64,000 nucleotides of DNA from Phytohabitans suffuscus (GTDB lineage Bacteria > Actinomycetota > Actinomycetes > Mycobacteriales > Micromonosporaceae). A program made the translations under genes and the position numbers. The stretch covers positions 7,998,320 to 8,062,319 of the forward strand of contig NZ_AP022871.1 of the NCBI RefSeq assembly GCF_011764565.1, given 5' to 3'. The notes below the pieces were generated by a model, which was given only the letters and a program-made list of their open reading frames with translations, did not search any database and was not told the origin of the DNA. Positions 13,196-42,644 of the stretch are shown in pieces (position 1 is the first letter of the stretch; each line of letters opens with the position of its first letter).

Positions 13196-14143
13196 CGCCC
13201 CACCCCTGCCCCGTCTCGTCGCGCTCGCCGCCGGGGTCCGAGGTATCGGTTTCGCTGGATCGCGCCCCGATCATGGACCCGCCTCCGGCGAGGCCGGCGG
13301 ACGGCGGTTGCCCTTGTGGGGGCGGCTCGCATCCATGATCCGTCAGGGTTCTGCAAGAAGCGGACAAATCGGCAGAAAGTCACGGCCTGCACCGGTTACT
13401 GCGGACAGACCCGCACCCTGGCCCCAGACGTTGGGTAGGCGGCGGCGCCAGCTCCACCCAGTCCGGCGGATCGTGGTACGGATCCGCCCCCAGGAGGGCG
13501 GTTTCATACCACGATCCGCCGCGGTCGCCCTCGCGCATGGATCCGACGCCGGTGCGGGCGGCGTCCTGTGGGGGGCGGCTCGTGTCCACGATCCGTCGGG
13601 ACCGATCCCTCGGGCCGCGCGCAGGGCGGACAAATCGGGGGGAAACGGCCATCTGGACAGGTCACTGTGGACGGACGGGGCCCTCGGCGCGCTGGTCGTG
13701 CGCTCAGCGGTACAGGAGGAACGTTATGCGGGCTCCATACGCCGAGCAGACCGGGTGCGGCGGTGCGGACGGTGCCGATGTGGCTCGGGCGGCCAAGCGG
13801 GCCTCGACCCCGAACGCTCTCTGGAGCGCGACCCAGAAAGCCGCACGGCGAGTGAGCCGGGCAAGGTCTGTCCACAGTGGCCTGTCAGGGCAGGCCGGTT
13901 CCTGTGGATCTGTCCGTCCGGCGCGTGGCCCGAGAGGTCGGTCCCGACGAATCGTGGACGCGAGCTGCCCCTGGAAGGGCTACCGGCGTCCGCGATCCGC
14001 TGGCGAATGGGGGCAAACCGGACCTGGCCTCCGAAGATCTCTGCGGTGGGTGGGTGGGGCGTGGATGGTGCACGGCGGAGGGTGAGGCCGCGGGAGCGAC
14101 GGTCCGGACCACGGCGGGCGTCGCGGTAGCTCGGATCTGCGTC
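13196..14143. repeat. Gene-free repeat island A (mosaic of shared modules)
   Basis: 948 bp between two convergent genes with no convincing gene on either strand. It holds modules found again in islands B-E: a GCGGACAAATCGG box with its about 70-nt leader (13298-13380 and 13570-13650 forward, about 13900-13975 reversed), the H hairpin (13465-13520), a segment with GCTCAGCGGTACAGGAGG (13686-13739) shared with 35548-35626, and an inverted copy of the GCTCCCGCGGCCTCACCCTC box (14077-14097). Long open frames across it exist in several frames and change with strand, as expected of high-GC non-coding DNA. Confidence 0.75.
13465..13520 (-). repeat. H hairpin copy 1
   Basis: 56-nt imperfect inverted repeat. 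Both arms begin GGCGGATCGTGGTA and continue CGGATCCGCCC or TGAAACCGCCC. Orientation is set by the TATGAAAC arm, which here is on the right, so this copy is reversed relative to copies 2-4 at 19457, 28487 and 35847. Confidence 0.85.
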
Positions 14144-18523: not shown

Positions 18524-19196
18524 GCTGTCGCAGCATCCCGCGCGGAGACATACGCCTCTCGGTCGAATTCTTGCGAAATCTTGTCCGAAACTTTCTGGAC
18601 CTCTGGATGTGCCCCCGGTCCGTGCCAGTTATGGACCGCATGCGCGGGGGGTCCGTGGGCCACGCCCAAGCCCCAGGGCTGCCGGTGGTGTCGCGGCGTG
18701 TCCCGGCCCCGGGTGTGCCTTGGTCGCGGGGCGGGGAAGGCTCTGTGCGCCCGAGGGCGCGGCCGTTCGTGGCACTCCGCACCGTTCCGGAGAAACGTGC
18801 AGCTCACAGCCTTGATCAAATTAGGTTGGGTGGTATTGGGTCCGGGACCGTTGCTCCCGCGGCCTCACCCTCCCGCCGTGCGAGACGCCTGCCGCGCAGC
18901 GGTAGGCGTCGCCCCGACTCCGCCCCCGCGTCCGGTCCCGCCCCATACGGACGGCAGCTATACGCGGATTTGTCCGCCTGTCGCGTTGGCCCGAGGGATC
19001 GGTTCCGGCGGATCGTGGACCCGAGTCGCCCGACGAGGGCAACCGCCGCCCACCACCCCACTGACCAATGGGATAGGTCGGTGACCTGCGGAAATGCGGG
19101 CCTGTGGGGTCTTCGGGGAGGAGATCTGTGTAGATCGCGCAGCGTCCGCGTGCCTGGGCTTGACCCGAGATCCGTTTTGGTGTCGCGCTGGCTGTT

Positions 19197-19263
19197 GGTG
19201 ATCGTTCGCCCAGAATCCGCGTCCTGGCCGGTGTGTCACGCGGATTTCGGGCGACCGATCACC
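19197..19263. repeat. 67-nt stem-loop with 26-bp arms
   Basis: The left arm starts GGTGATCGTTCGCCC and ends ATCCGCGT; the right arm is its near-perfect reverse complement (GGTGATCGGTCGCCC when reversed), with a 15-nt loop. It is more regular than a typical terminator and is not followed by a T run. No second copy was seen in the window. Confidence 0.8.
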
Positions 19264-19456
19264 GTGCCGACCGCCCCCGTTTCCGTGATCGACGTTCTGG
19301 GATCTGCCCGGAGCCAGCCGACGTCGACGTCGATCAAGGCCCCGTGGACCCCGATCCCGGAGGTTCTGTAGCGGGGTTTCGGGTTGGGTGGCATGAGCAG
19401 GTCGCGCAGTGTCCGCCGGTCGCGGTCGGATCCGCTGGTCGCGGCGGGATCCCAGT

Positions 19457-19506
19457 AGATCGTGGTATGAAACTGCCCTCATAGGGGCCATTCCGTACCA
19501 CGATCT
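19457..19506 (+). repeat. H hairpin copy 2
   Basis: 50-nt inverted repeat beginning AGATCGTGGTATGAAACTGC and ending GTACCACGATCT. It is the most diverged copy in the loop-proximal stem (GGGGCCATTCC where the others have GGGGCGGATCC). Confidence 0.85.
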
Positions 19507-20054
19507 GCCGAGACTGCGTGCGCGTGGACCATGAACCCTGGTCTCGGACCCTGAGTCAGCGAACAAATCGTCGGAAAGCGGCCATCCGCAAAGACCATTG
19601 TGGACAGACCCGAGACCGTGGACCCGAAAGCTCGATAGAGACCGGAGACCTTCCGGGGCTGGGGTCGCGGGACTGTCCACGCGCCGGTTGGGCCGGCCGC
19701 CTTCAACCCCGGATCTGGAAGTAAGCCGCCGCGATGTCCGCGGTGGCCCGGACCCAACGCCACCCAGCCTAGTGTGATCAAGGCTGCGGGCTGCGCATTC
19801 TCAGAGGCGCCGCGAGCGCCACGAAAGGCCGAGCACTCGGGCGCACGGAGACCTTCCCTGCCCACCAGGGGGTAGCCCAGCACGGGCCCGACTCCATGAT
19901 CGACCTAAGGCGAGTGGCAGGACATCGCGGCAGCTCAAACATGGACGGGCCCGGCAAGCCCGGGGTGGCGCGGCGGGGGTAGGGCTGGCCCTACCGGCGA
20001 TATGCCGGCAGGCACCATCGAAGCGGCCGCGAATCCACATCAGACTCGACAGTC

Positions 20055-27282: not shown

Positions 27283-27984
27283 ATGGTGCAGCATCGAGAC
27301 CTGGTCACTTCCGTGGCCGAGCACATCGGCGTCAGCGTCGAGGACGCGCGGCGGGCCGCCGAGGCCACCATCGCCACCCTCGTGCGAACGGTGGACGAGC
27401 CCCAGCGGCAGCAGGTGCTGGACGCCGTACCCGCGCTGCTGGCCGAGAACGCCGCCGCCGCGCCCGGCCCCGCCTGGGACGAGGACGACTTCGTCGCCGA
27501 GGTGTCCTGGCTGACCGGCACCGCGCCGGAGGAGGCCCGCGCACGGGTACAGGCGGTGCTCTTCATCCTGTCCCGCCAGGAGCCGGAGCTGCTGGGTGAG
27601 CTGGAGCTGCCAGGCGACATCCGCGACCTGATCAGCGACCCGGCCCCCGGCGGCGGCATCACCGGCCCGCGCGGGCAGACCGCGCGCCTGACCGACGACG
27701 AGCTGGCCGCCGCGCTGGCCAACCTGCCGTACTGGACCGGCGGCCACCGCGCGATCCGCCGCACCGTCCAGCTGCCCGAGGACAACCTGGGGCGGGTGCT
27801 CGAACGCATCGAACGGCTCCGCGACGAGATGGGCCGGGCCCCGGACGTCGAGCGCGACGGCGACACGGCGACCCTGACCGTCTACACGAGATCGGTCGGC
27901 GCCGTCACCCGCCTGGACGTCGACCTCGCCCGCCGCGTCGACGCCGCCCTCATCGAGGCCGGAGCCGGCATGTACGCCCCGTGA
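27283..27984 (+). CDS. DUF2267 domain fused to pterin-4a-carbinolamine dehydratase-like domain
   Basis: 233 residues in two parts. Residues about 1-115 are a DUF2267 domain (HRDLVTSVAEHIGVSVEDARRAAEAT ... LPGDIRDLI). Residues about 130-230 resemble the PCD/DCoH fold (LTDDELAAALANLPYWTGGHRAIRRTV ... TLTVYTRSVGAVTRLDVDLA). The active-site motif of true dehydratases, [E/D]-x(3)-H-H-P, is absent: the matching region reads DTATLTVYTRSVGAVT, so the domain is probably non-catalytic. GGAGGGAGA lies 8 nt before ATG 27283. The gene ends at the edge of island C. Confidence 0.75.
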   Translation: MVQHRDLVTSVAEHIGVSVEDARRAAEATIATLVRTVDEPQRQQVLDAVPALLAENAAAAPGPAWDEDDFVAEVSWLTGTAPEEARARVQAVLFILSRQEPELLGELELPGDIRDLISDPAPGGGITGPRGQTARLTDDELAAALANLPYWTGGHRAIRRTVQLPEDNLGRVLERIERLRDEMGRAPDVERDGDTATLTVYTRSVGAVTRLDVDLARRVDAALIEAGAGMYAP

Positions 27985-28001
27985 CAGGCCTCCGCGGCAC
28001 G

Positions 28002-28071
28002 GCGCCGGCTCCGCCGGTGGTGTAACGCCGGCTCCGTCGGTGGCGTAAGCGCCGGCTTCGTCGGTGGCGTC
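28002..28071. repeat. Three tandem copies of a 24-bp unit
   Basis: The unit GCCGGCTCCGTCGGTGGCGT with 4-5 more bases is repeated three times just after the stop of the DUF2267 fusion gene. It is simple-sequence expansion in intergenic DNA, not matched elsewhere. Confidence 0.7.
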
Positions 28072-28486
28072 TGTCCGGCCAGATGTGCCCCGGTCCGCTT
28101 CAGTAGCGGACCGCATGCTCCCGCGGGCACCGCTCCGGCCGGCGGCTCGCTGGCGCTCGCCGACTGCCCCGACCTCCGCTGCCAGGTCCGCGCCGGTCGG
28201 GGCCACCCAGCTTCGCAACGCGACAGTCCAGCTCCGGTCCGCCCCCGACGGTGGACGGCGGTTGCCCCTGTGCGGGCGGCTCACGTCCACGATCAGCCGG
28301 AACCGATCCCTCAGGCCCTGCGACAGGCGGGCAAATCGGGCGGAAAGCGGCCAGTGTCAGCTCGGGAGCGACCCGGCGGCTTCCATCTCTCCTCATCGGA
28401 TCGCTGAGGCCCACGATCACCCCTGACCAGGAGAACAAACCAGACGAATCCGGCGCCGCCCTCGAACGTGCGGCTCCCGGCCAACA

Positions 28487-28534
28487 GATCGTGGTATGAA
28501 ACTGCCCCCAGAGGGGCGGATCCATACCACGATC
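28487..28534 (+). repeat. H hairpin copy 3
   Basis: 48-nt inverted repeat: GATCGTGGTATGAAACTGCC on the left and GGATCCATACCACGATC on the right. The outer 11 bp (GATCGTGGTAT) pair perfectly. Confidence 0.87.
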
Positions 28535-28720
28535 CACCAAAACCGACCCCCAGTCTCCACATCGGGCGGACAGACCAGCGGAAGCACAGAGGTCACTGTG
28601 GACAGAACCGGACATAGAGACCTTCCGGGGTCAGGGTGGGCTCGGTCGCCTGCCGCGAGCCCCTGACGCCGCGAGGTAGGCCACGGACCCGAGGCGAGGT
28701 AACCCGTTGCGGGACGCTCT

Positions 28721-28750
28721 GAAGCTGGGCGCACCAGTGCGTCCAGCTTC
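28721..28750. repeat. 30-nt stem-loop
   Basis: GAAGCTGGGCGCAC and its reverse complement, with one mismatch, around a 2-nt loop. The left arm overlaps the module shared with island D. A second perfect stem, CCGCTGCC/GGCAGCGG, follows at about 28770-28789. Confidence 0.75.
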
Positions 28751-29027
28751 GGAGCCAGTCGCACCCCACATCCGCTGCCCCGGCAGCGGAGCGGCGGTGC
28801 CGGCCCGCCCGGGGCGTGTGCGGCGGTCATCCAGGTCCGTCCGCGACGGATCGTCCGTCCCGTGAGGGCTTGGATCATTGTGGCTGCCGCGGGGGTGTCT
28901 CCTTGACGCCTCCAACCGATTTGTCCGTCCGGCGCGCGGCCCGAGAGATCGGTTCCGGCCGGCGTCGCGAAGCGACGCCGGCCCAGCCCCCTCGGCCCGG
29001 CCAACGGCAACCACCGGAACGGATCTT

Positions 29028-29532
29028 CTACGGGTGGGTGAGGTGGCGCAGGGCGGCGCCGCACCGGTGGGCGTAGGCGCGCTGGAAGGCGGTCAGCGTC
29101 GGTCCGGCCAGCCACACCCACCAGCGTGCCGGGCGGCTGAACGCGACCACGTCGAGCCACACCGTGCCGTCGGGGTCGAGGGTCACGACGAACGCCTCCT
29201 CGCCGCGCAGCGGGTGGCCGGCCAGGGTGCCGTACCCGAAGCCGGCGCGGCGCTCGCCCTCCTCGGCCCACACCACGGCGCAGGGGGCGTGCATGCGGAA
29301 GGGGCCCAGGCCGGGGCGGGTTGTCACGGCGACGCCGGGGTGGCCCGAGGGGCGTCCGCCTGGACGGGGACGCCCATCGTCTCGTGCATGCGCCAGCTCA
29401 GCACCGCCTCCACGGCCGCGGTGAACGCGGCGGGGCCGATGTCCACCCGCGTGCGGTAGCGCAGGTGGCGGTAGCCGGCGGGCAGCGGTCCGCGCTGGGT
29501 GGCGCCGGCTTCCGGGTACGTCGTCAGAGCCA
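29028..29532 (-). CDS. DUF1990-family protein (one frameshift)
   Basis: About 167 residues when the shift is repaired. The N-terminal piece (LTTYPEAGATQRG, then PAGYRHLRYRTRVDIG, WRMHETMGVPVQADAPRATP) and the C-terminal piece (CAVVWAEEGERRAGFGYGTLAGHP, EEAFVVTLDPDGTVW, AFSRPARWW) together make a complete DUF1990 domain, a family of unknown function related in fold to START/SRPBCC-like proteins. The shift is near 29330, where one G is missing. It is the last gene of the TetR-YndJ-DUF1990 operon; the start overlaps the end of the upstream gene by 9 nt. Confidence 0.8.
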
Positions 29533-30387
29533 TTGCGAACCCGCTCCTGTCCGTTGGGGTGCTGCCGTGCGTGGGATCGCTGCCGTGCGTTGCCAGGCGA
29601 TCAGCGCGCAGAGGGCGAAGCCGAGCGCGTTGGCCAGCCCGTGGGTCGCGACCATCCACGAGATCGGCGGGTGGGGGAGGCCGGCGGCCTGGCCGAGCGC
29701 CCAGGCGAGGGCCAGCACCATCGTCGCGGCGAGCGTGAGGGCCGACGTGGCGAGCAGCCCGCGGCGTGCGGCCCCGGCTCGGGCCTGGCGCAGGCTGAGC
29801 CAGCCGACCAGCCACATGCCGGCGGTGAGGACGGCGGCGCCGGCCAGCTCGACCCACTCGCTGGTGAAGAAGCCCACGAACACCACCGCGACGCCGGCCG
29901 GCACCGAGAGCGCGGCGAGGCGCCCGGCCGGGCGGTCACCGTCCACATCGCACACCAGGGCGGCGACCAGCGCGGCGGCGAAGCCGGCGTAGTGGAAGTG
30001 GGCGACGGTCAGCGACAGCACGTCGAGGTCGAACCCGAACAGCCGGTGGCCCGCCCGCTCCGCCACCAGCGCGGACGCCGCGACCGACGGCGCGGCCAGC
30101 GCGGTGGCGACGGCGACCGTGCCCGGCCTGGGGCGCCCGGCCAGGACCAACCGGCCCGCGCCCGCCGCCAGCGCCGCGGCGGCCGGCAGGTAGGCGGCGG
30201 CCAGCACCGCCGCGAGCCAGCCGCGCGGCAGCCACACCGAGACCGCGGCCGGGCCCGCGGCGGCGAGCCACAGCCGGCGTACCCGGGGCACGCCGGGCGC
30301 CGCCACCAGGCGCAGGCCGAGCGGCATCACCACCAGCAGGCCGGCGCAGATCAGCACGTTGAGCAGGGCGTGGCTCCAGGCGCTCAC
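29524..30387 (-). CDS. YndJ-like membrane protein
   Basis: 287 residues with nine or so hydrophobic helices, matching the membrane part of the YndJ family (HFHYAGFAAALVAALVCD with its conserved His-Phe-His-Tyr motif, and MVATHGLANALGFALCALIAW near the end). YndJ function is unknown; the conserved His residues in helices are compatible with metal or haem binding, which is speculation. Its GTG start overlaps the TetR stop (GTGA), and its stop overlaps the DUF1990 start, so all three genes are translationally linked. Confidence 0.78.
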   Translation of the reverse strand: MSAWSHALLNVLICAGLLVVMPLGLRLVAAPGVPRVRRLWLAAAGPAAVSVWLPRGWLAAVLAAAYLPAAAALAAGAGRLVLAGRPRPGTVAVATALAAPSVAASALVAERAGHRLFGFDLDVLSLTVAHFHYAGFAAALVAALVCDVDGDRPAGRLAALSVPAGVAVVFVGFFTSEWVELAGAAVLTAGMWLVGWLSLRQARAGAARRGLLATSALTLAATMVLALAWALGQAAGLPHPPISWMVATHGLANALGFALCALIAWQRTAAIPRTAAPQRTGAGSQWL

Positions 30388-31064
30388 GACCGCACCTTCC
30401 GCACCAGCCACAGCAGGTCGGTGGTGATCGGGCACATGCCGGGCAGCCGGGAGAGGCGGATCAGCCGCCCCACGAACGGGGTCGCCAGGTCGATCAGCCG
30501 GCGGGTGCGGTCCTGCTCGTACGACATGTCGTGCACCCAGTACAGCGTCACCCCGAGGTGGGCCAGCCACAGCAGCTCGGGCAGGTCGGCGCGGACCTGG
30601 CGGTCGACCGCCGGCTTCGACCCCTCGACGACGTCGCGGAAGAGCGCGATCGCCGCCTCGCGGGCGGCCGCCGACTCGACGCTGAACGGGCTCGACGGGG
30701 ACCTCGGGTTGATCGCGACGCCGAGGAAGGAGCCGGCGAAGTCGTGGTACGGCGACATCACCGTCACGCCCGCGTGCAGCACCCCGCGCAGGCGGTCGCC
30801 GAGACCCGTCCGGCCCAGCGCCTCCGCCGACTCCTCGCGGTGGCGGCGCTGGATCTCGGCGTAGAACTCCTGCAGCAGCTGGTCCTTGGAGCGGAAGTAG
30901 TAGTACGCGTTGCTCACCGACACGCCCGCGGCGTCGGCGATCGCGCGCATGGTGGTGCGCTCGTAGCCCCGCTCGGCGAACAGTCGCAGCGCGGTCCGCA
31001 GGATCAGCTCGCGGGTGCGCTCGCCGTGCGCGGGCGGTGCGCCGGCCGGACTGGACGTCCCCAT
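30384..31064 (-). CDS. TetR-family transcriptional regulator
   Basis: 226 residues: helix-turn-helix at about 18-65 (TTMRAIADAAGVSVSNAYYYFRSKDQLLQEFY) and a large helical ligand-binding domain. It is the first gene of an operon with YndJ- and DUF1990-type genes. An 18-bp perfect palindrome, the classical TTGAAC-N-GTTCAA type of operator, ends 12 nt upstream of its ATG, so autorepression is likely. The ligand is unknown; the combination suggests a membrane- or lipid-related signal. Confidence 0.92.
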   Translation of the reverse strand: MGTSSPAGAPPAHGERTRELILRTALRLFAERGYERTTMRAIADAAGVSVSNAYYYFRSKDQLLQEFYAEIQRRHREESAEALGRTGLGDRLRGVLHAGVTVMSPYHDFAGSFLGVAINPRSPSSPFSVESAAAREAAIALFRDVVEGSKPAVDRQVRADLPELLWLAHLGVTLYWVHDMSYEQDRTRRLIDLATPFVGRLIRLSRLPGMCPITTDLLWLVRKVRS

Positions 31065-31075
31065 GGCACCTCCGC

Positions 31076-31093
31076 ATTTGAACTAGTTCAAAT
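31076..31093. promoter_or_regulatory. TetR operator 1, perfect 18-bp palindrome
   Basis: ATTTGAACTAGTTCAAAT is self-complementary over all 18 bases and lies just upstream of the TetR start codon. A second copy of its 15-bp core centred 38 bp away was split by the IS element. Confidence 0.75.
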
Positions 31094-31114
31094 CACGCTC
31101 ACGGTAGCGCTGGA

Positions 31115-31124
31115 TTTGAACTAG
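31115..31124. promoter_or_regulatory. Left half of disrupted TetR operator 2
   Basis: TTTGAACTAG directly abuts the left end of the insertion sequence; the other half, CTAGTTCAA, abuts its right end (32147-32155). Removing the element and one CTAG copy restores TTTGAACTAGTTCAA. Confidence 0.7.
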
Positions 31125-32146
31125 ACGATCGATTCCAAGGGGTAGTGGGGCAGCGGACGAAGGGGAGGGTGTCCATGATCGACGTTGCCTAGACAACGAG
31201 ACCATGGAGGCCACGTGCACGTCGATCTGGACACCCTCGCCACCGCACTGTACGTGAAGATCGACGACGGTTTGAGGGCGTCCCCGCAGCTCAACCGGTA
31301 CAGGCCCGAGGTCGGTCTCGTCCCGAAGATCACCGACGCCGAGTTGATCACCGTTGCTGTTCTCCAGGTACTGCTCGGCCACCACAACGAGACCCGCTGG
31401 CTGCGTCGAGCCCGCAAGGATATCGGGCACCTGTTCCCATACCTGCCTAAACAGCCCGGTTACAACAAACGGCTACGGACGCTGGCACCCCAAATGACCT
31501 ACGGCATCGCCGTCCTAGCCGCTGATACCGACCTGTGGCAGCACCCGATCCGCATCGCCGATTCCACCCCGGTGCCCTGCGGCACGTCCCGCACCACCGC
31601 CCAAAACTCCGACCTGGCCGGCTGGGCCGGATACGGCTACTGCGCCTCCCATTCACGCCGGTTCTGGGGACTTCGTCTGCACCTGGTCACCACCGTGCAC
31701 GGCCTTCCCATCGCGATGGCCCTGGCCAACCCGAAAGCCGACGAACGCGACGTACTCGTAGACCTGGTCTCCTTCCAACCCAACATGTTCAGTCACCCCG
31801 ACGGACTGATCCTGGTCGTGGACAAGGGATACCGTGACCGATCCACCGAAACATGGCTCAACGAAGCCAACATCACTGTCGTGCGACCCGCGTACCGCAA
31901 CGAAACACCACGCCCTGGCAAGACATTGCTCCACGCAGTCCGACAAACGATCGAATCAGTGAACGACACCCTCAAAGACCAACTCGGACTCGAACACCAC
32001 GGCGGCCGCACCACCGCAGGCGTCACCATACGCATCCTGCAACGCATCCTCGCACTGACCGCCACCATCTGGCACAACTGGCACACCGGCCAACCGATCA
32101 TGCGCTCCCTGGTCGCCTACGACCACTAACCCTTGGAATCGATCGT
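31125..32146 (+). mobile_element. IS982-family insertion sequence, complete, 1022 bp
   Basis: Terminal inverted repeats of 24 bp with one mismatch (31125-31148 and 32123-32146; outer bases ACGATCGATTCCAAGGG) enclose a single transposase gene. The element is flanked by direct repeats CTAG (31121-31124 and 32147-32150), taken as the target-site duplication. It looks recent: transposase open, ends near-identical, target intact. GC content is visibly lower than in neighbouring genes. Family is assigned from the transposase. Confidence 0.9.
31215..32129 (+). CDS. IS982-family transposase
   Basis: 304-residue DDE transposase. GTG 31215 is preferred to an upstream TTG (31185) because GGAGG lies 4 nt before it. 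The opening HVDLDTLATALYVKIDD, the segment HLFPYLPKQPGYNKRLR and the closing TIWHNWHTGQPIMRSL are typical of the actinobacterial IS982 group. Acidic catalytic residues are seen in IADSTPVPC (first Asp), LVVDKGYRD (second Asp) and TIESVNDTLK (Glu). The stop codon lies inside the right terminal repeat. No frameshift or truncation, so it should be active. Confidence 0.93.
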   Translation: MHVDLDTLATALYVKIDDGLRASPQLNRYRPEVGLVPKITDAELITVAVLQVLLGHHNETRWLRRARKDIGHLFPYLPKQPGYNKRLRTLAPQMTYGIAVLAADTDLWQHPIRIADSTPVPCGTSRTTAQNSDLAGWAGYGYCASHSRRFWGLRLHLVTTVHGLPIAMALANPKADERDVLVDLVSFQPNMFSHPDGLILVVDKGYRDRSTETWLNEANITVVRPAYRNETPRPGKTLLHAVRQTIESVNDTLKDQLGLEHHGGRTTAGVTIRILQRILALTATIWHNWHTGQPIMRSLVAYDH

Positions 32147-32172
32147 CTAGTTCAAGAGCGGGGACCCAAGCG

Positions 32173-32502
32173 TCAGCGGGGCTCGCTCAGCCACTCCCAC
32201 GCGCGCCGGAGGTTTTCGCCCACCGAGCGGTCGGCGTCGGCGGCGACCGGGTCGGCGCTCGGCTCACGCAGGTCGGTGCCGGGCACGGTGAGCAGCACGC
32301 CGCCGCTGTGCAGCTCGCCGATCTGCTCGCGGCGGGCGAAGCGGTGCCCGTCCGGGGTGCGCACGACGAGGCCGTGGAAGATGTCCGGCCCCTCGTCGGC
32401 GAGGACGTGCATCACCTCGCCGACGAGGACGCGGTTGCTGTCGTACACCGGTACGCCGCCGGGCAGCACCGTGTAGGCCACCGGTTCGCCGAGTCCTTCC
32501 AC
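32173..32502 (-). CDS. PRC-barrel-like small protein
   Basis: 109 residues. The first about 70 residues (VAYTVLPGGVPVYDSNRVLVGEVMHVLADEGPDIFHGLVVR) form a series of short strands with the Gly-Val-Pro-Val-Tyr-Asp opening of PRC-barrel-type domains, which bind RNA or photosynthetic proteins and occur widely in actinomycete stress genes. The C-terminus (SVGENLRRAWEWLSEPR) is helical. It ends 27 nt from the IS right end and reads toward it, so its promoter is unaffected. Confidence 0.6.
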   Translation of the reverse strand: MEGLGEPVAYTVLPGGVPVYDSNRVLVGEVMHVLADEGPDIFHGLVVRTPDGHRFARREQIGELHSGGVLLTVPGTDLREPSADPVAADADRSVGENLRRAWEWLSEPR

Positions 32503-32549
32503 GCCCTGACCGTACCCACGCGCGGGCGCTCTACTCCTCGGAAGCGGTT

Positions 32550-33365
32550 CTACGCGTTCTCGGCCTGGTCGAGGAACGCGAGCGTCACCGCGACGAACAG
32601 GGGCGACATGAACAGGTTGTAGTGCGTGAGGCCGGGCAGGATCGCCAGCGCGTGGCCGCCCTTGGGCCGCCCCTCGCCAATCCAGCCGCCGTCCCGCAGC
32701 CCGCCGTCGAGCAGCTTGAAGACCTCGACGAAGTGGCTCGGCGGGGCCATGTCGGCGTCGGCGGCGACGATGAGCGTCGGCACCAGGAGGCCGCGTACCT
32801 CGTCGCTGAGGTCGAACTCGTGCGACATCGCCTCGCCGATCTTGTCGAGCAGCCGGGGAAGTCCTCCGGGCGCGGCGCGACCCTCACGTACGACTCGTAC
32901 ATCGGCGTGTCCTTCATGAACTCCGCCGCCGCCGCGTTCACCTGGCCCTGCTGCTCGCGCATCTCGTCGGGGATCGCGTCGGTGCTCACGTGCGCGGGAG
33001 GCGGAGACCAGGCGGCCCACCTTCTCCGGGTACTTCAGCGCGATCCGCAGCGCCACCCCGCCGCCGAGCGAGTAGCCGACCACGTCGGGCCGGTCCAGCC
33101 CCAGGTGGCCGATCAGCGCGGCGACGTCGTCCGCCATCAGCGCGATGTCGAGCGGGCGGTCGATGTCGGCGGTGCGGCCGTGCCCCTGCAGGTCGACGAG
33201 GATCACCTGGTGGCGCTCGGTGAGCGCGGGCAGGATCGGGGCGAACATCTCGCCCGAGCCGAGCCCGCCGTGCAGCAGGATCATCGGCCGGCCGGCGCCG
33301 TGGGTCTCGTAGTACAGGTTGATCCCGTTGACGTCGGCGTACCGGCCGGCGGTGGTGTCGCTCAT
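32550..33365 (-). CDS. Alpha/beta hydrolase (two compensating frameshifts)
   Basis: 271 codons stay open although the middle is out of frame. The oxyanion segment is ILLHGGLGSGEMF, the nucleophile Ser lies in VVGYSLGGGVALR and the catalytic His in GHALAILPGLTHYNLF. Between about 32998 and 32870 the open frame (REHRRDPRRDARAAG...) looks unnatural, while another frame gives HVSTDAIPDEMREQQGQVNA and SYVRVAPRPEDFP, which fits the fold. A pair of shifts of opposite effect is the simplest explanation. General esterase/lactonase-type enzyme, substrate unknown. Confidence 0.82.
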   Translation of the reverse strand: MSDTTAGRYADVNGINLYYETHGAGRPMILLHGGLGSGEMFAPILPALTERHQVILVDLQGHGRTADIDRPLDIALMADDVAALIGHLGLDRPDVVGYSLGGGVALRIALKYPEKVGRLVSASRAREHRRDPRRDARAAGPGERGGGGVHEGHADVRVVREGRAAPGGLPRLLDKIGEAMSHEFDLSDEVRGLLVPTLIVAADADMAPPSHFVEVFKLLDGGLRDGGWIGEGRPKGGHALAILPGLTHYNLFMSPLFVAVTLAFLDQAENA

Positions 33366-33507
33366 GGTGTTGCTCCTCGGAGTCGTGGCTCGTCGTTTCT
33401 TGTCGGGTCAGACTCCGTGGCCGCGCCGAACTCATCGCCCGCTCACGCGCGAAGTTTGAAGCCCCGGCGCGGAAGCACCGTCGCGGACGTCGACGGCACC
33501 GGCGCGG

Positions 33508-33545
33508 GAGCACCGGCTCGGGGCTCGAGCACCGGCTCGGGGCTC
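33508..33545. repeat. Two tandem 19-bp copies
   Basis: GAGCACCGGCTCGGGGCTC occurs twice back to back between the hydrolase start and the small convergent-side gene. It reaches 2 nt into the stop end of the gene at 33544. Confidence 0.7.
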
Positions 33546-33822
33546 AGCGGTTGGTGAAGTTGCCCGCCTTCGCCCCGCTGCTCGAACCGTCGCTGGTCGT
33601 GCCGCTCGCGGGCGTACTCATGCCGCCGCTCGTCGCGTCCCCGGTCGTGGTCGGCGCCACCTTGCCGCGACCGATGTCCCGGTTTGTCCGGCGGCGTACG
33701 CTTGCCGGCCCGGCCGTCCCGCCGGTGGTCGTCACCGCCCCGTGGCCGCGGGTCGGGCCGCCGTCGCGCCGGACCTCCTCGTCCAGGGTCTCCGTGCTCT
33801 CACCAGGAGTGCGCTCAGACAT
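33544..33822 (-). CDS. Small disordered protein, unknown function
   Basis: 92 residues, hydrophilic, rich in Thr, Gly, Ser and Arg (TTTGGTAGPASVRRRTN, GATSGGMSTPASGTTSD) without a hydrophobic core. The ATG at 33822 is divergent from the SRPBCC gene with 60 nt between starts. Its composition resembles low-complexity stress or spore-associated proteins, but no family is recognised. Confidence 0.5.
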   Translation of the reverse strand: MSERTPGESTETLDEEVRRDGGPTRGHGAVTTTGGTAGPASVRRRTNRDIGRGKVAPTTTGDATSGGMSTPASGTTSDGSSSGAKAGNFTNR

Positions 33823-33882
33823 GTGTTCGGGATACCCGGCGCGGTCCCCGGTAACCGCCGCCGCACTGGGTATGAGACGGGC

Positions 33883-34275
33883 ATGGAGATCAGTGGCAGG
33901 TACGGGTTCCACGCGCCGTCGGAGGTCGTCTTCAACAACCTCACCGACCCCGACCGGGTGCACCGGTGGCTGCCGCTCGGCGTGAGCCTGGAGCGGTGCG
34001 GCCCCGACCGGGTACGCGTCGTGGCGCCGGTGGGGTCGGCCGAGTGCGAGGTCGACGCGGCGGTGGAGGACATGCGGCTGACGCTGCGTTCCGTCGACGC
34101 GCCGCACGTGCACGGCACCGCCGTGGTGGAGGACGACCCGGCGGGCGGCAGCCGCGTACAGGTGGTGGTCAGCGCCGAGGGGGTCGACCTGGACCCGCGA
34201 ATCGTGCGGGACGTGCTGGACGAGACCATGGGCCAGCTCTGCAGCGACGTGGACGACAACTTCAACACCGGCTGA
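33883..34275 (+). CDS. SRPBCC / START-like domain protein
   Basis: 130 residues of the polyketide-cyclase/START-like superfamily, which forms a hydrophobic pocket for lipids or polyketides. The opening GRYGFHAPSEVVFNNLTDPDRVHRW is the usual first strand, helix and Trp of this fold; the end (RIVRDVLDETMGQLCSDVDDNF) is the long C-terminal helix. It is slightly shorter than average. The ligand is unknown; ATG 33883 is the only suitable start. Confidence 0.75.
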   Translation: MEISGRYGFHAPSEVVFNNLTDPDRVHRWLPLGVSLERCGPDRVRVVAPVGSAECEVDAAVEDMRLTLRSVDAPHVHGTAVVEDDPAGGSRVQVVVSAEGVDLDPRIVRDVLDETMGQLCSDVDDNFNTG

Positions 34276-34292
34276 CCCCGCCGCCCGCGACG

Positions 34293-34298
34293 TAGGCT
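34293..34298 (+). promoter_or_regulatory. Leaderless-type -10 box TAGGCT
   Basis: TAGGCT ends 7 nt upstream of ATG 34306, with no ribosome-binding site in between, the usual arrangement of leaderless actinobacterial transcripts. Confidence 0.5.
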
Positions 34299-34305
34299 GT
34301 CGTCC

Positions 34306-34670
34306 ATGGGGGATGACAGCGCGGTCGAGTACCTCGCGCGCACCGACGTCGTGCACATCGCCACCGAGCCGCGCGCCGGGGCGAGATCGTCACCCCCATC
34401 TGGGCGGTCGTGGTCGACGGCGTGCCGTACGTGCGCAGCGGCTACGGCACCAGCTCCAACTGGTTCCGCCGGGCACGCCGCGACGGCCGGGCGACCTTCG
34501 TCGACGGGCGGCACCGGTACCCCGTGGCGGTCGAGGTCGTCGACGACGAGGCGACCGTCGACCGGGTCGACGACGCATACCGGACCAAGTACGCCCGCTA
34601 TCGAGGCCCGCTGCGCGGCATGCTCGCGCCGGAGCTCCGCGCGTTCACCATGCGGGTCACGCCACGGTGA
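34306..34670 (+). CDS. DUF2255-family protein (one frameshift)
   Basis: About 121 residues when repaired. The second frame (VVVDGVPYVRSGYGTSSNWFRRARRDGRATFVDG) is the core of DUF2255, a small family related to split-barrel flavin-binding or pyridoxamine-oxidase-like proteins. The first frame gives the N-terminus (EYLARTDVVHIATEPRAG). The shift is near 34378 in a GGGG run; one extra G joins AG-GEIVTPIWAV. Its stop overlaps the GTG of the methyltransferase gene (GTGA). Confidence 0.75.
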
Positions 34671-35217
34671 CACCGGCGCCGCCCCGCGGGGCGGACCGGC
34701 AGCGCTGGGTGGCGCGGACCCTCGCGGTGCGCCCGGCCGACCGCCTCCTGGAGATCGGCTGCGGCGCCGGCACGGCCACCGCGCTGGTCGCCGAGGCCCT
34801 GCGGGAGGGACGCATCGTCGCGGTCGACCGGGCGGCGAGCGCCGTACGCCAGGCACGCGAACGCAACGCCGCCGCCATCCGCCGCGGCCAGGTGGAGGTC
34901 CGGCACCTCGACATCACGACCGCCGACCTGCCGGAAGCCTCGTTCGACACCGTCTTCGTCGTCAACCTGAGCCTCTTCTGGCTGGCCACCCCACCCGGCC
35001 TGATCGACCGGATCGGCCGCCTCCTCGCCCCGGAGGCACGCTGCACGTCTTCGCCGAGCGCCCCACCCGCGCCGCCGTCGAGGCCATCGCCGCCCAGGTA
35101 GTGAGCACCCTGCGCGAACACCCCTTCACCGAGGTCGCCGCCACCGTCGACCAGACCCGCACCGCGATCACCGCTGGCAGGTGGCGCCGGCGGCCCCACG
35201 ACCCCGAGAAGCGTTGA
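34667..35217 (+). CDS. Class I SAM-dependent methyltransferase (one frameshift)
   Basis: About 184 residues when repaired. Motif I is LLEIGCGAGTATALV, followed by IVAVDRAASAVRQARERN (acidic ribose-binding residue Asp) and SFDTVFVVNLSLFW (motif IV-like). The frame changes near 35032: LLAPE should read LLAPGGTLHVFAERP, needing one C in a run of four. The acceptor substrate is unknown. GTG 34667 overlaps the preceding stop, so the gene is coupled to the DUF2255 gene. The stop is directly followed by the first module of island D. Confidence 0.82.
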
Positions 35218-35549
35218 GCTACCGCGACGTCCGCGGTGGTCCGGACCGTTGCTCCCGCGGCCTCACCCTCCGCGGTCCACCACGCCAACCCAACGACCCG
35301 CTCACCCGGCCTCCGCCGGCCGACCAAGCGGCTGATCCGGGCCGTACGGCTCCTCGAGGCCCAGCTCTGTCCACAGTGGCCGCTGGGCGAGGGGCTGGTT
35401 CCTGCCGCCTCCCTCGCAACGCGGGATCCATAGAGCTTTCGCGAGCGGATCGAGCGGCGTCCCCGCGGCCCAGCTTCAGAGCGTCCCGCCGAGCCACATC
35501 GGCGCCGTCCGCGCGGCGCGGTGAGGGCCGCGTCCGCCACGCCCGATCT

Positions 35550-35610
35550 GCTCAGCGGTACAGGAGGCACGTTATGCGGGCTCCATAAGGTGCCTCCTGT
35601 ACCGCTGAGC
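35550..35610. repeat. 61-nt palindrome, 21-bp perfect arms
   Basis: The left arm (35550-35570, beginning GCTCAGCGGTACAGG) is exactly complementary to the right arm (35590-35610). Inside, TTATG and CATAA pair again around a 7-nt loop after one G-G mismatch. One half, with the flank GGCGCGCTGGTCGTGC, also occurs at 13686-13739, so the palindrome looks like two head-to-head copies of that module. Confidence 0.9.
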
Positions 35611-35846
35611 GCACGACCAGCGCGCCCGCGGTCCGCTTCCGCCCTGTTTGTCCGTCCGCCGCGCGGCCCGAGGCGTCGGCTCCGGCTGATCGTGGACGCG
35701 AGCTGCCCCCGCGGGGCATCCGCCGCCGACGATCACCGGCCAACAAAGCACAAACCAGCCGATCTCGGCCGCGATGCCACCCCGCACCCCCAGCCCGCCG
35801 ATCCACGCCGGCGTCGGATCCATGCTCGCGAGGGGCGATCGCGGCG

Positions 35847-35893
35847 GATCGTGGTATGAAACCGCCCTCCTGGGGCGGATCCGTACCACGATC
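35847..35893 (+). repeat. H hairpin copy 4
   Basis: 47-nt inverted repeat from GATCGTGGTATGAAACCGCC to GGATCCGTACCACGATC with a short CTCCT loop region; almost identical to copy 1 read in reverse. Confidence 0.88.
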
Positions 35894-36150
35894 TTTTGAT
35901 CCGGCGAGTGGGGCGGGAGCGGCGGGCGGACAAATCGGCAGTAAGTGGCCGGCCGCAGCCCCACAGCTCCGCTTTCCCGGAGGAGGCACCCCCGCGCCAC
36001 CCAGCCTGGCGAGCCGGCCGGCCGGAGCTGCGGTCCGTAGGTGACGTGGACCGGGGGGCAGGGCACGAATCCGAAGAAAAACCTTCTCGCCCAGGGCAAC
36101 CTCACGGACCCCGACCTCCGTCTGGATCCCGACGGAAGGAGCCAACGCGA

Positions 36151-36654
36151 GTGAAGCAGCGCGACGAGGAGGAGTTCCGCGAGTTCGTCGCCGGGCGGAT
36201 GGAGGCGTTGCGCGGGCTGGCGTACCTCACCTGCGGGGACTGGCAGGCGGCCGAGGACGCGGTGTCGACCGCTCTCAGCAGGCTGTACGTCCGGTGGAGC
36301 CGGGTGAGCGCGCCGTACACGTACGCCCGGCGCGCCGTGGTCCACGCCGCCATCGACGAGACGCGGCGGCCGTGGCGGCGGGAGCGGTCCACCAGCCCCG
36401 ACCTGCTCGACCGGCCCGCTCCGGACCGGATCGACGCGGCCCACGACCACGTGCACGTGCGGGAGGCGCTGCTGCGGGTGCCGCGCGGGCAGCGTGCCGT
36501 CCTGGTGCTCCGGTTCTACGAGGAGCTGAGCGTCGAGGAGACCGCGCGGGTGCTGGGCCGCAGCACCGGCACGGTCAAGAGCCAGACCGCCAAGGGGCTG
36601 GAGGCGCTGCGGGCCGCGCTCGGCAGCCACGAGTTTCACACGGCCATCGGATAG
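36151..36654 (+). CDS. SigE-family ECF RNA polymerase sigma factor
   Basis: 167-residue group IV sigma factor. Region 2 (about 10-70; LRGLAYLTCGDWQAAEDAVSTALSRLY) and region 4 (about 105-160; ALLRVPRGQRAVLVLRFYEELSVEETARVLGRSTGTVKSQTAKGL) are complete. Members of this SigE-like subfamily are abundant in actinomycetes and usually lie next to a small membrane protein, as here (16 nt downstream). GTG 36151 is used, with GGAAGGAG upstream; earlier in-frame starts would extend into repeat DNA. Confidence 0.9.
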   Translation: MKQRDEEEFREFVAGRMEALRGLAYLTCGDWQAAEDAVSTALSRLYVRWSRVSAPYTYARRAVVHAAIDETRRPWRRERSTSPDLLDRPAPDRIDAAHDHVHVREALLRVPRGQRAVLVLRFYEELSVEETARVLGRSTGTVKSQTAKGLEALRAALGSHEFHTAIG

Positions 36655-40724: not shown

Positions 40725-42644
40725 ATGGACGACCGCTCGCTGGTGGCGGCGATGGTCGCCGGCGACCCGCGCGGTCTCGACGGCGCCTACCGCCGCTACG
40801 CACCCCGGCTGTACGCGTACTGCCGTTCGATCCTGCACGACGCCGACCGGGCCGCCGACGCCGTGCAGGACACGTTCGTGATCGCCGGGCGGCGGGCCGG
40901 TCAGCTGCGCGAGCCGGAGCGGCTGCTGCCCTGGCTGTACGCGGTCGCCCGCCACGAGTGCCTGCGCCAGATCCGCGACCGGCGGCGGGAGGCGCCCGCC
41001 GAGCTTGACGACGCGAGCGCCGACACCGCGGACCTCGGTGCGGGACTGCGGGCGGCCGAGGCGCGCGAGCTGGTCCACGCCGCCGCGGCCGGCCTCGGCG
41101 ACGGCGACCGCGAGGTGATCGAGCTGGCGCTGCGGCACGGCCTGTCCGCCGCGGACGTCGGCGCGGTGCTCGGCGTCCCGGCCAACCACGCGCACGCCCG
41201 CCTGTCCAGGGCCCGGGCCCAGCTCGAACGCGCACTCGGCGTCCTGCTCGTGGCCCGGGCGGGCGCCTGCCCGGCGCTGCAAGACCTGCTACCCGCCCCA
41301 CCCGCCGGGCCGCCAGCTCCACCCGCTGGAAGGCCGGCTCAACCTGCCGGGCCGCCAGCTTCACCCGCCGGGCAGCCGGCTCCCGCTGGGCCGCCGGCTT
41401 CACCCGCCGGGCGGCCGGCTCCATTCGCCGGGGAGCCGGCTCCCGCCGGGCGGCCGGCTTCACCCGCCGGGGAGCCGGCTCCCGCTGGGCCGCCGGCCTC
41501 ACCCGCCGGGCGGCCGGCTCCATTCGCTGGGCAGCCGGCTCCCGCTGGGCCGCCGGCTTCTCTCGCTGGGAGGCCGGCTCCCGCTGGGCTGCCGGCTCCA
41601 GCCGCTCGCGGCTGGGACGGGCGGCTCACGCCGCTGCTGCGCAAGCGGCTCGGGCGGCACGTCGACGGCTGCGCCCGCTGCCTGGCCAGCCGGGGCGCCC
41701 TGCTCAGCCCGGCGGCGCTGCTGAGCGGGTACCTGGCCGCGCCGTTCACGGTCCTGCCCGCGGCCACCTGGCGCCCGGCCGGGCCGCCGGACGTCCCGCT
41801 GCGCCGCGACGGGTTTCCGGCCCGGCGGCGGCGCGGCACGCTGGCGGCGGCGGCCGGTGCCGCGGCGGCCGTGGCGGTGCTGGTGGTGGTCGTCCTGACC
41901 CGGACCGACGAGCCGGCGCCGCCGCCCGACCTGGCGAGCGGGCCGGTCTCGCCCGCGCCGGCGTCCCCGGGACCGCCCACGCCGCCCGTCGCGCCGGCGG
42001 CCTCCTCGGGGCCGCCCGCGCCGGGGCCCACCGGGCCGCCGGTCCCCGTGGCCAGCGAGCCGGCCGGACCGGCCTTCGCCGACCCCACACCCTCCGCGCG
42101 GCAGCCGGACGGTGACCAGGACCCGGACGGTGACCAGGACCCGGACGGTGACCAGGACCCGGCGTTCAGCGTCGCGGCCGGCGGCAGCGTGCGGTGCGGC
42201 GCGGACGGCGTCACGTACACGCTCTTCGCCGAGGCGACCGCCAACCGCGCGATGACCGCGAGCCGGCTCTTCTGGAGCAGCGCCCGGTCCGGCACCGAGA
42301 GCACCGCGATGACCGCGACCGCGCGCGACGCCGCCCGGGGCAGCCGCGCCGGCCTGCGCTACGAGCGGGTCACCTGGTGGGTGCGGGGCGTGGCGGCCGA
42401 CGGCGGCAGCGGCGAGAGCCCGCACCGGACCCTGCTCGACCCCTGCCGCGGCGACCGGGGGCCGGGCGACATCATCGCGCCGTCGGCACCGGTGTCGCCA
42501 GGCCCGCGAGGGCGGCGTCCAGGTCGGCCGGGCGCTCCCACAGGGCCCGGGAGAGCCGCGCGTTGCTGCCGGTCCAGACCATCCGCAGCTCCGGCGCGCC
42601 GCCGCGCAGGTCGAGGGCGAGCATCGGCCGGCGCTGCTGGTTGA
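40725..42644 (+). CDS. Sigma factor fused to zinc-finger anti-sigma-like and membrane domains
   Basis: Single protein of about 639 residues. Residues about 8-80 are sigma region 2 and about 110-172 region 4 (a sigma-70-like ECF factor). A Pro/Ala/Gly repeat linker (about 190-295) leads to an anti-sigma zinc motif, His312-x3-Cys316-x2-Cys319, then one transmembrane helix (about 372-392), a Pro-rich stalk with three PDGDQD repeats and an extracytoplasmic domain. Regulator and inhibitor are thus one chain held at the membrane, which would need proteolysis to release the sigma part. The last about 57 codons overlap the end of the convergent gene at 42472, so the true stop may be earlier, hidden by a sequence error. 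Confidence 0.8.
   Translation: MDDRSLVAAMVAGDPRGLDGAYRRYAPRLYAYCRSILHDADRAADAVQDTFVIAGRRAGQLREPERLLPWLYAVARHECLRQIRDRRREAPAELDDASADTADLGAGLRAAEARELVHAAAAGLGDGDREVIELALRHGLSAADVGAVLGVPANHAHARLSRARAQLERALGVLLVARAGACPALQDLLPAPPAGPPAPPAGRPAQPAGPPASPAGQPAPAGPPASPAGRPAPFAGEPAPAGRPASPAGEPAPAGPPASPAGRPAPFAGQPAPAGPPASLAGRPAPAGLPAPAARGWDGRLTPLLRKRLGRHVDGCARCLASRGALLSPAALLSGYLAAPFTVLPAATWRPAGPPDVPLRRDGFPARRRRGTLAAAAGAAAAVAVLVVVVLTRTDEPAPPPDLASGPVSPAPASPGPPTPPVAPAASSGPPAPGPTGPPVPVASEPAGPAFADPTPSARQPDGDQDPDGDQDPDGDQDPAFSVAAGGSVRCGADGVTYTLFAEATANRAMTASRLFWSSARSGTESTAMTATARDAARGSRAGLRYERVTWWVRGVAADGGSGESPHRTLLDPCRGDRGPGDIIAPSAPVSPGPRGRRPGRPGAPTGPGRAARCCRSRPSAAPARRRAGRGRASAGAAG
41289..41609 (+). repeat. Coding minisatellite in the sigma-fusion linker
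   Basis: About 320 bp of GCCGGCTCCCGCTGGGCC-type units of 15, 30 and 60 bp, encoding PAPAGPPASPAGRPAPFAG-like repeats. All units keep the reading frame, so length changes would alter the linker only. Confidence 0.85.
42105..42158 (+). repeat. Three perfect 18-bp copies in coding sequence
   Basis: CCGGACGGTGACCAGGAC occurs three times in a row, encoding PDGDQD repeats in the extracytoplasmic stalk of the sigma-fusion protein. Aspartate-rich repeats could bind calcium; that is speculative. Confidence 0.85.

Follow-up and report, generated by a model that had tools for sequence, protein, structure and literature searches.

Several described systems resemble the hairpin that we analyse here, which we call H. 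Intrinsic terminators are hairpins that lie directly after stop codons, often between convergent genes, MITEs are small palindromic elements that are dispersed and non-coding, and attC recombination sites combine conserved outer arms with a variable paired interior. H was found as four copies in the window, i.e. the whole stretch of DNA that was analysed (64 kb, 73.8% G+C), which lies on the 10.15 Mb chromosome of Phytohabitans suffuscus. Like intrinsic terminators, GATC-footed hairpins often lie after stop codons in several genomes, in many cases between convergent genes, but H has no U tract, is recurrent in size and foot and, in the P. suffuscus genome (G000), lies far from genes. Like MITEs, it is small, palindromic, dispersed and non-coding, whereas neither a target-site duplication nor a parental IS was found for it in a non-exhaustive search. 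With attC sites it has in common the conserved outer arms and the variable paired interior, but it is dispersed instead of being arranged in arrays at the loci examined, and its arm sequence is different.

REPs are 20-40 bp long with stems of 5-13 bp, and for those of the CGTC type there is no known transposase, which is treated as an open question (PMC3733652, in the part of the text at hand, which also names MITEs). Similarly to REPs of the GTAG and CGTC superfamilies, H is a high-copy extragenic imperfect palindrome that is mostly found downstream of genes and partly in mosaics and close pairs (PMC3733652, PMC2817692, as far as the available parts describe these superfamilies), and similarly to CGTC REPs no transposase was found for it (PMC3733652, same part). 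It differs from REPs in its size, 48 nt with a loop of about 4 and 22 opposed stem positions whose pairing is often imperfect (in the window copies, 12 and 7 bp on the two sides of an internal loop), instead of a stem of 5-13 bp (PMC3733652, same part), and in its GATC, which lies within the paired foot, with no unpaired tag and no RAYT found. Among the partial records returned by a literature search there was no description of the H repeat, and the literal arm-letter matches listed were unrelated by title.

We consider it somewhat probable that H is the Phytohabitans branch of a REP-like extragenic hairpin family in Micromonosporaceae, folded, measured by length, footed by GATC, presumably read by a protein and with a usual role at gene 3' ends. 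The defining features of the family are a paired GATC foot, a span of 48 nt from GATC to GATC and a stem that is free to change if it stays paired.

Table 1. Hairpins and repeat blocks of the window (positions counted from its first base)
Feature	Position	Strand	Length (nt)	Remarks
H copy 1	13469-13516	-	48	between convergent genes
H copy 2	19458-19505	+	48	right arm carries CCATTCCG variant
H copy 3	28487-28534	+	48	between convergent genes; flank-defined 'A-type' copy
H copy 4	35847-35893	+	47	loop shorter by one base; element under study
K hairpin, decayed H relative	28247-28294	-		foot arm GATCGTGGAC intact at a single end
J hairpin, second family	35550-35610		61	foot GCTCAGCGGTAC instead of GATC; shares its block with H copy 4
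Repeat block with H copy 2	18576-19973		1398	24 nt between aligned ends in G002
Repeat block with H copy 3	27986-29046		1061	G003 has 30 nt
Repeat block with H copy 4	35149-36078		930	G003 has 37 nt

Copies, fold and setting of H in Phytohabitans

The four H copies belong to a real repeat with several hundred copies in the genome. All eight of their arms read GATCGTGGTA exactly, and the window contains 12 arm matches with at most one mismatch where 2.09 are expected from shuffles, a number reached by none of 100 shuffles. The first-pass annotation had reported four copies of 47-56 nt, with common outer arms and with CGGATCC in one arm of every copy, an observation that we could partly confirm: the copies and their arms were correctly recognised, while the ends of copies 1 and 2 had to be corrected to those of Table 1, the length is 48 nt in three copies and 47 nt in one, and CGGATCC is present in three of the four, CCATTCCG taking its place in copy 2. 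Folded as RNA, three of the copies form 12 bp, a 3x3 internal loop, 7 bp and a loop of 3-4, the interior of copy 2 being slightly different, with folding z values of -6.6 to -7.6 for RNA and -4.8 to -6.7 for DNA. An Rfam search of positions 13000-36500 gave no match at the gathering score, the best being two sub-threshold MIR7486 matches at H copy 1 (E 0.14 and 0.88).

Exact-arm copies (GATCGTGGTA/TACCACGATC) were counted in six Phytohabitans genomes, namely G000, the source of the window, and G001-G005, of which G003 is P. flavus. G000 has 339 (0 for the reversed-pattern control), P. flavus 94, G005 153 and G002 10, with none in G001 and G004, and outside Phytohabitans the search returned one single match among 35 genomes. 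A sample of 864 kb of G000, made up of 40 stretches of 20 kb spread across the chromosome and the window, contains 30 copies, 25 with perfect arms, two with one mismatch and three with two; what matched with 3-4 mismatches consisted of overlaps, K relatives or chance-like sequences. Solo arms account for 5 of 58 and appear by eye to be H copies that were damaged or truncated. Genes were called by a codon-usage script (coding fraction 0.77), and none of the 30 copies lies inside one; 15 lie between convergent genes, 10 between tandem and one between divergent genes, and four are at sample edges, convergent regions making up 42.9 of the 171.9 kb of intergenic DNA. The H-bearing intergenic regions measure 0.55-2.5 kb, with one of 244 bp, and there H is one module in mosaics of several dispersed repeats, with flanks that are common to several distinct repeat families. 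Along G000:C1 0-3 Mb the density of H is uneven (at least 41 copies in 0-1 Mb, at least 11 in 2-3 Mb), and the gene-poor samples L070, L078, L087, L088 and L091 have no H copies. As to a link of this density with the replication origin, no origin could be placed from the G+C skew of the samples. Carriage by phages was rejected, with 0 viral contigs, as was carriage by plasmids, no plasmid matching the one 451-base stretch compared.

We compared the window in synteny with the related genomes G002, G003 and G005, where identity is 80-92% in most of the aligned pieces. At the sites of H copies 2-4, where G000 has a block of 0.9-1.4 kb, one or more of the relatives have just 24-37 nt (Table 1), and in place of the block with copy 3 G005 and G002 each contain a small reading frame within a few hundred nt. 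At H copy 1 the gene content differs in all three relatives in the stretches compared. G000 has no counterpart of the H sites that G003 and G002 carry in the syntenic stretch; the G003 site lies inside a 2.45 kb insert with a gene that by eye is sigma-factor-like, and the G002 site adjoins an inverted segment. What differs between species in the window is the whole block, not the 48-nt H alone.

Pairing of the stem and relatives in other genera

Pairing was assessed by swapping halves between copies. Within G000 we see no covariation of H, i.e. the inner 14 pairs of 26 unique copies are 72.0% Watson-Crick compared to 70.3% with swapped halves (maximum 75.3%). In 60 unique copies from the Phytohabitans relatives, 73.1% are paired compared to 64.1% (maximum 68.5%), and in other genomes, represented by 58 of 74 listed copies from eleven genomes that were chosen by the outer 8 bases and spacing only, 79.4% compared to 40.5%, a gap that comes mostly from between-genus differences. 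Half-swapping ignores relatedness, and the between-genus figures therefore stand for paired stem differences, not for a number of events. The strongest signal within a genus comes from g51, where 19 copies are paired at 88.7% compared to 50.8%, with 27 extra pair types and 80 of 266 cells changed on both sides. Covariation is weak in genus g4, presumably Micromonospora (22 copies, 71.1% compared to 67.7%), and little in G006 (70.0% compared to 68.6%), while G134 and G135 show 83.9% compared to 78.2% and 80.4% compared to 72.4%, respectively. By position, pairing ranges from 8 to 81% in the middle of the stem (positions 11-17) and from 73 to 96% in the apical stem. In a small test on 22 copies, read on the presumed sense strand, G.T and A.C mismatches were equal in number (19 and 19), with no sign of an RNA-specific wobble tolerance.

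These results bear on the proposal of the first-pass annotation that loop-proximal bases vary while pairing is mostly kept, as expected if the structure matters, an interpretation that is partly supported. Its example, CTGCC against CCGCC, is a one-sided T.G to C-G change and not a compensatory one. The comparison of many copies that it called for found no compensatory changes in G000, weak signs of them in g4 and strong ones in g51, supporting a role of the structure at the family level but not among the G000 copies. As to whether mismatches are as frequent in stems as in loops, the answer is not uniform: mismatches are common halfway along the stem, the apical stem is mostly paired, and the arms rarely change, also in copies that were not selected by them.

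A search for the exact outer 8 bases with a spacer of N30-34 gave matches in 127 of 354 Micromonosporaceae genomes, many of them single, non-palindromic and looking like chance in coding sequence, and one match each in three of 391 genomes of the same class outside the family, two of these being good hairpins. An isolated match in another family, or a lone copy as seen in some genera, can be a hairpin that arose by chance. A match in a Desulfomonilaceae MAG (L053), by eye within an ABC-transporter-like gene, was taken as chance. Allowing two mismatches, the counts increase from 8 to 54 in G345, from 5 to 39 in G346 and from 6 to 131 in G348, all three of genus g51 (controls 0), and amount to 28 in G134, 24 in G135, 15 in G203, 10 in G183, 16 in G242 and 11 in G006, the reversed control giving 2 in G242 and 0 in all others. 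Of the 36 two-mismatch matches that were listed in G134 and G135, 13 show concerted changes of both feet (e.g. GATCTTGG/CCAAGATC), and many of the rest are chance-like. An invariant GATCGTGG across the family was rejected as a feature, as the exact-arm pattern itself had selected that result; indeed, beyond GATC, GATCGTGG is not invariant outside Phytohabitans.

Foot and size were examined in a census of hairpins that had no sequence requirement. In 400 kb of G348 (genus g51), on contigs chosen for exact matches, there are 43 intergenic hairpins, 19 of them with GATC in the paired foot, and the next commonest foot tetranucleotide, TGAT, which overlaps GATC, occurs in 11. The span from GATC to GATC is exactly 48 nt in 17 of the 19, while their full paired length varies and pairing often extends outside GATC. 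The same census in G000 found 23 of 51 hairpins to be GATC-footed, 17 of the 23 with exactly 48 nt. Other Phytohabitans stretches (210 kb) gave six of 14, only one of the six with the 48-nt span, and 94 kb from 29 other g4 genomes gave none of five. In some genomes, though not in every one, foot and size recur while the sequence of the stem does not; we observed both in two genera without sequence pre-selection, together with paired differences between copies that are strongest in g51.

As a separate observation, P. flavus also contains a different, unrelated-looking 48-nt GATC hairpin (GATCTAGTCGAC..GTCGACTAGATC, L010:5954-6001; also in L041, L052, L054, L056 and L063).

Position relative to gene 3' ends

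Distances to the nearest gene 3' end were taken after excluding edge copies (4 in G000, 14 in P. flavus/P. maris and 1 in the other genomes, where 3 genic copies were also excluded and two sites from G004, a Phytohabitans, are included). The median is 494 nt in G000, with none of 23 copies within 30 nt, 133 nt in P. flavus/P. maris, with five of 46, and 15.5 nt in the other genomes, where a stop codon lies within 30 nt of 22 of the 35 non-edge intergenic copies and 18 of the 35 are between convergent genes. The element lies near stop codons in the other genomes sampled and in lineage-specific intergenic blocks in Phytohabitans. In G348, 17 of 18 measurable GATC-footed hairpins lie between -5 and +16 nt relative to a gene 3' end, but 14 of the 22 other hairpins with a measurable distance are also within 20 nt of one. 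Position alone is therefore no mark of the GATC family, which slightly weakens the REP-like reading and slightly raises its terminator rival. For one G203 gene, no such hairpin was present in the stretch printed downstream of it at 29 other-g4 loci (one of which ends at the gene), and several of these have other hairpins there. G242, which is outside the 29-locus set, has such a hairpin in the orthologous position, and it has another site in common with G203.

The rival in question holds that these hairpins are bidirectional terminators or 3'-end barriers that are selected for folding alone, with neither mobility nor a dedicated binding protein. We regard it as unlikely, though less so than the other alternatives; it accommodates the strong folding of H, the short distances and the convergent genes in the other genomes, the remaining hairpins of G348 at the same distance and the occurrence of different hairpins or none after one gene in 30 g4 loci. 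A terminator would have no need, however, for a GATC foot, a 48-nt span or kept arm letters, and the distances in G000 and the equal numbers of G.T and A.C mismatches in the small test described above also argue against this rival. Furthermore, the outward flanks of 31, 59 and 36 copies contain no T run, and a terminator scan of 27900-36200 lists neither of the two H copies in that interval.

Arm constraint, candidate enzymes and neighbouring repeats

For an unbiased choice of copies we used flank profiles of one H type, so that the arms played no part in the selection. There were 22 left and 22 right matches; after exclusion of those ending short of the hairpin side, 21 sites were kept, which correspond to 18 after removal of three duplicates. 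No intact H is present at four of these (two internal deletions, one site without a hairpin and one with a K hairpin instead) and were dropped before substitutions were counted. The remaining 14 copies, which share descent and hence are not independent, have 0 substitutions in 280 arm positions, 19 in 392 (4.8%) in the inner 28 bases and 143 in 823 (17%) in the 30-base flanks. Given the difference between arms and flanks, the 10-nt arms look constrained at the base level in Phytohabitans, a pattern that would be hard to get otherwise, and the inner rate is also below that of the flanks.

This constraint makes it improbable that H is decaying passenger DNA, i.e. a module of larger intergenic repeats with no role of its own. 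Such a status would fit the flanks common to several repeat families, the species-specific blocks and the four of 18 flank-defined sites that have lost or replaced the hairpin, but it would not lead us to expect untouched arms beside flanks changed at 17% of positions, or 25 of 30 sampled copies with both arms perfect.

It is very improbable that H is a classical REP mobilised by a RAYT (Y1 tyrosine transposase), as suggested by the first-pass annotation, since PF01797 has no match in the six Phytohabitans genomes, which refutes the idea for this genus as far as PF01797 reaches, even if copy number, extragenic palindrome, 3'-end preference and mosaics fit the REP/BIME descriptions (PMC2817692, PMC3733652, in the parts at hand) and Y1 matches exist in 6 of the 23 genomes searched, all outside Phytohabitans (control rings 5 of 14). 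At the Y1 loci examined, 8 of 17, there was neither a GATCGTGG hairpin nor a 44-63 nt GATC-footed hairpin within about 1.5 kb. In 31, 59 and 36 copies, neither GTAG nor CGTC occurs as an unpaired tag in a constant position next to the foot, a loose test at either foot finding one in 6, 12 and 4, respectively. Among 334 proteins encoded up to 2.5 kb from H, no transposase was outstanding by eye in the 25 largest clusters, and one IS-transposase-like cluster has one of its four members near H. The comparison of filled and empty sites gave no clean 48-nt pair among the sites listed. GATC as a simple duplicated target was rejected for the clearest empty sites listed (50-nt G005 hairpin), which hold no GATC.

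Returning to the REP-like family, we propose that a protein might recognise the element once folded, as a GATC-footed hairpin of two turns. The ordinary place of the element would be that of a 3'-end element marking or protecting transcript ends, often convergent ones. It would also have been copied around the genome, in Phytohabitans chiefly within larger intergenic repeat blocks that carried it along as a passenger. The enzyme involved would not be a Y1 (RAYT-type) transposase. A bolder version, which we put forward tentatively, is that of a third REP superfamily, characterised by GATC in a paired foot and by a stem measured at two turns (22 bp), that might have been spread through Micromonosporaceae by a dedicated non-Y1 enzyme reading shape and length but not sequence, and that might in Phytohabitans build species-specific mosaics with J.

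We believe that this candidate family of high-GC actinomycetes, whose length recurs, whose tetranucleotide is fixed and whose stem covaries strongly in one genus, makes it possible to test directly what binds a 22-bp GATC-footed hairpin. If true, the proposal would help to explain the long noncoding mosaics of these genomes, and it bears on the open question of REPs that have no transposase, such as the CGTC type (PMC3733652, in the part at hand).

Several other repeats were seen beside H. K relatives of H, with foot GATCGTGGAC or GATCATGGAC and partly decayed, occur in the window at 13269-13340 and 35688-35734 in addition to the one in Table 1; K and H share a downstream tail, which suggests that the mosaics may consist of repeated hairpin-plus-tail units. 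Copies of J with the exact foot number 15 in G000, 10 in G005 and 0 in G001-G004 and are always 61 nt long. In 14 unique G000 copies of J, pairs 13-18 covary (88% compared to 68% swapped, a value reached by 0 of 2000 shuffles), with no covariation in pairs 19-27 (81.0% compared to 81.1%). A 60-nt hairpin family (GGTGGTAGCAGGGGACCCCTG..) with a layout similar to that of J is found in G203 and G242 (L161, L162, L163, L169, L170). A partly palindromic module of about 60 nt, the T module, lies at about 14075, 35216 and 44364 in the window, with 37 profile matches in 864 kb, and often adjoins gene 3' ends, even where the intergenic region measures no more than 88-185 bp; given this presence beside 3' ends in short regions, mosaic blocks bounded by terminal inverted repeats were rejected. 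In several g4 genomes, long hairpins of the type GATCTTGCACTT..AAGTGCAAGATC or similar were seen by eye shortly after the stop codon (L207, L223, L225, L230-L232). Finally, positions 41262-41639 of the window form a G+C-rich tandem array with 18- and 21-bp steps.
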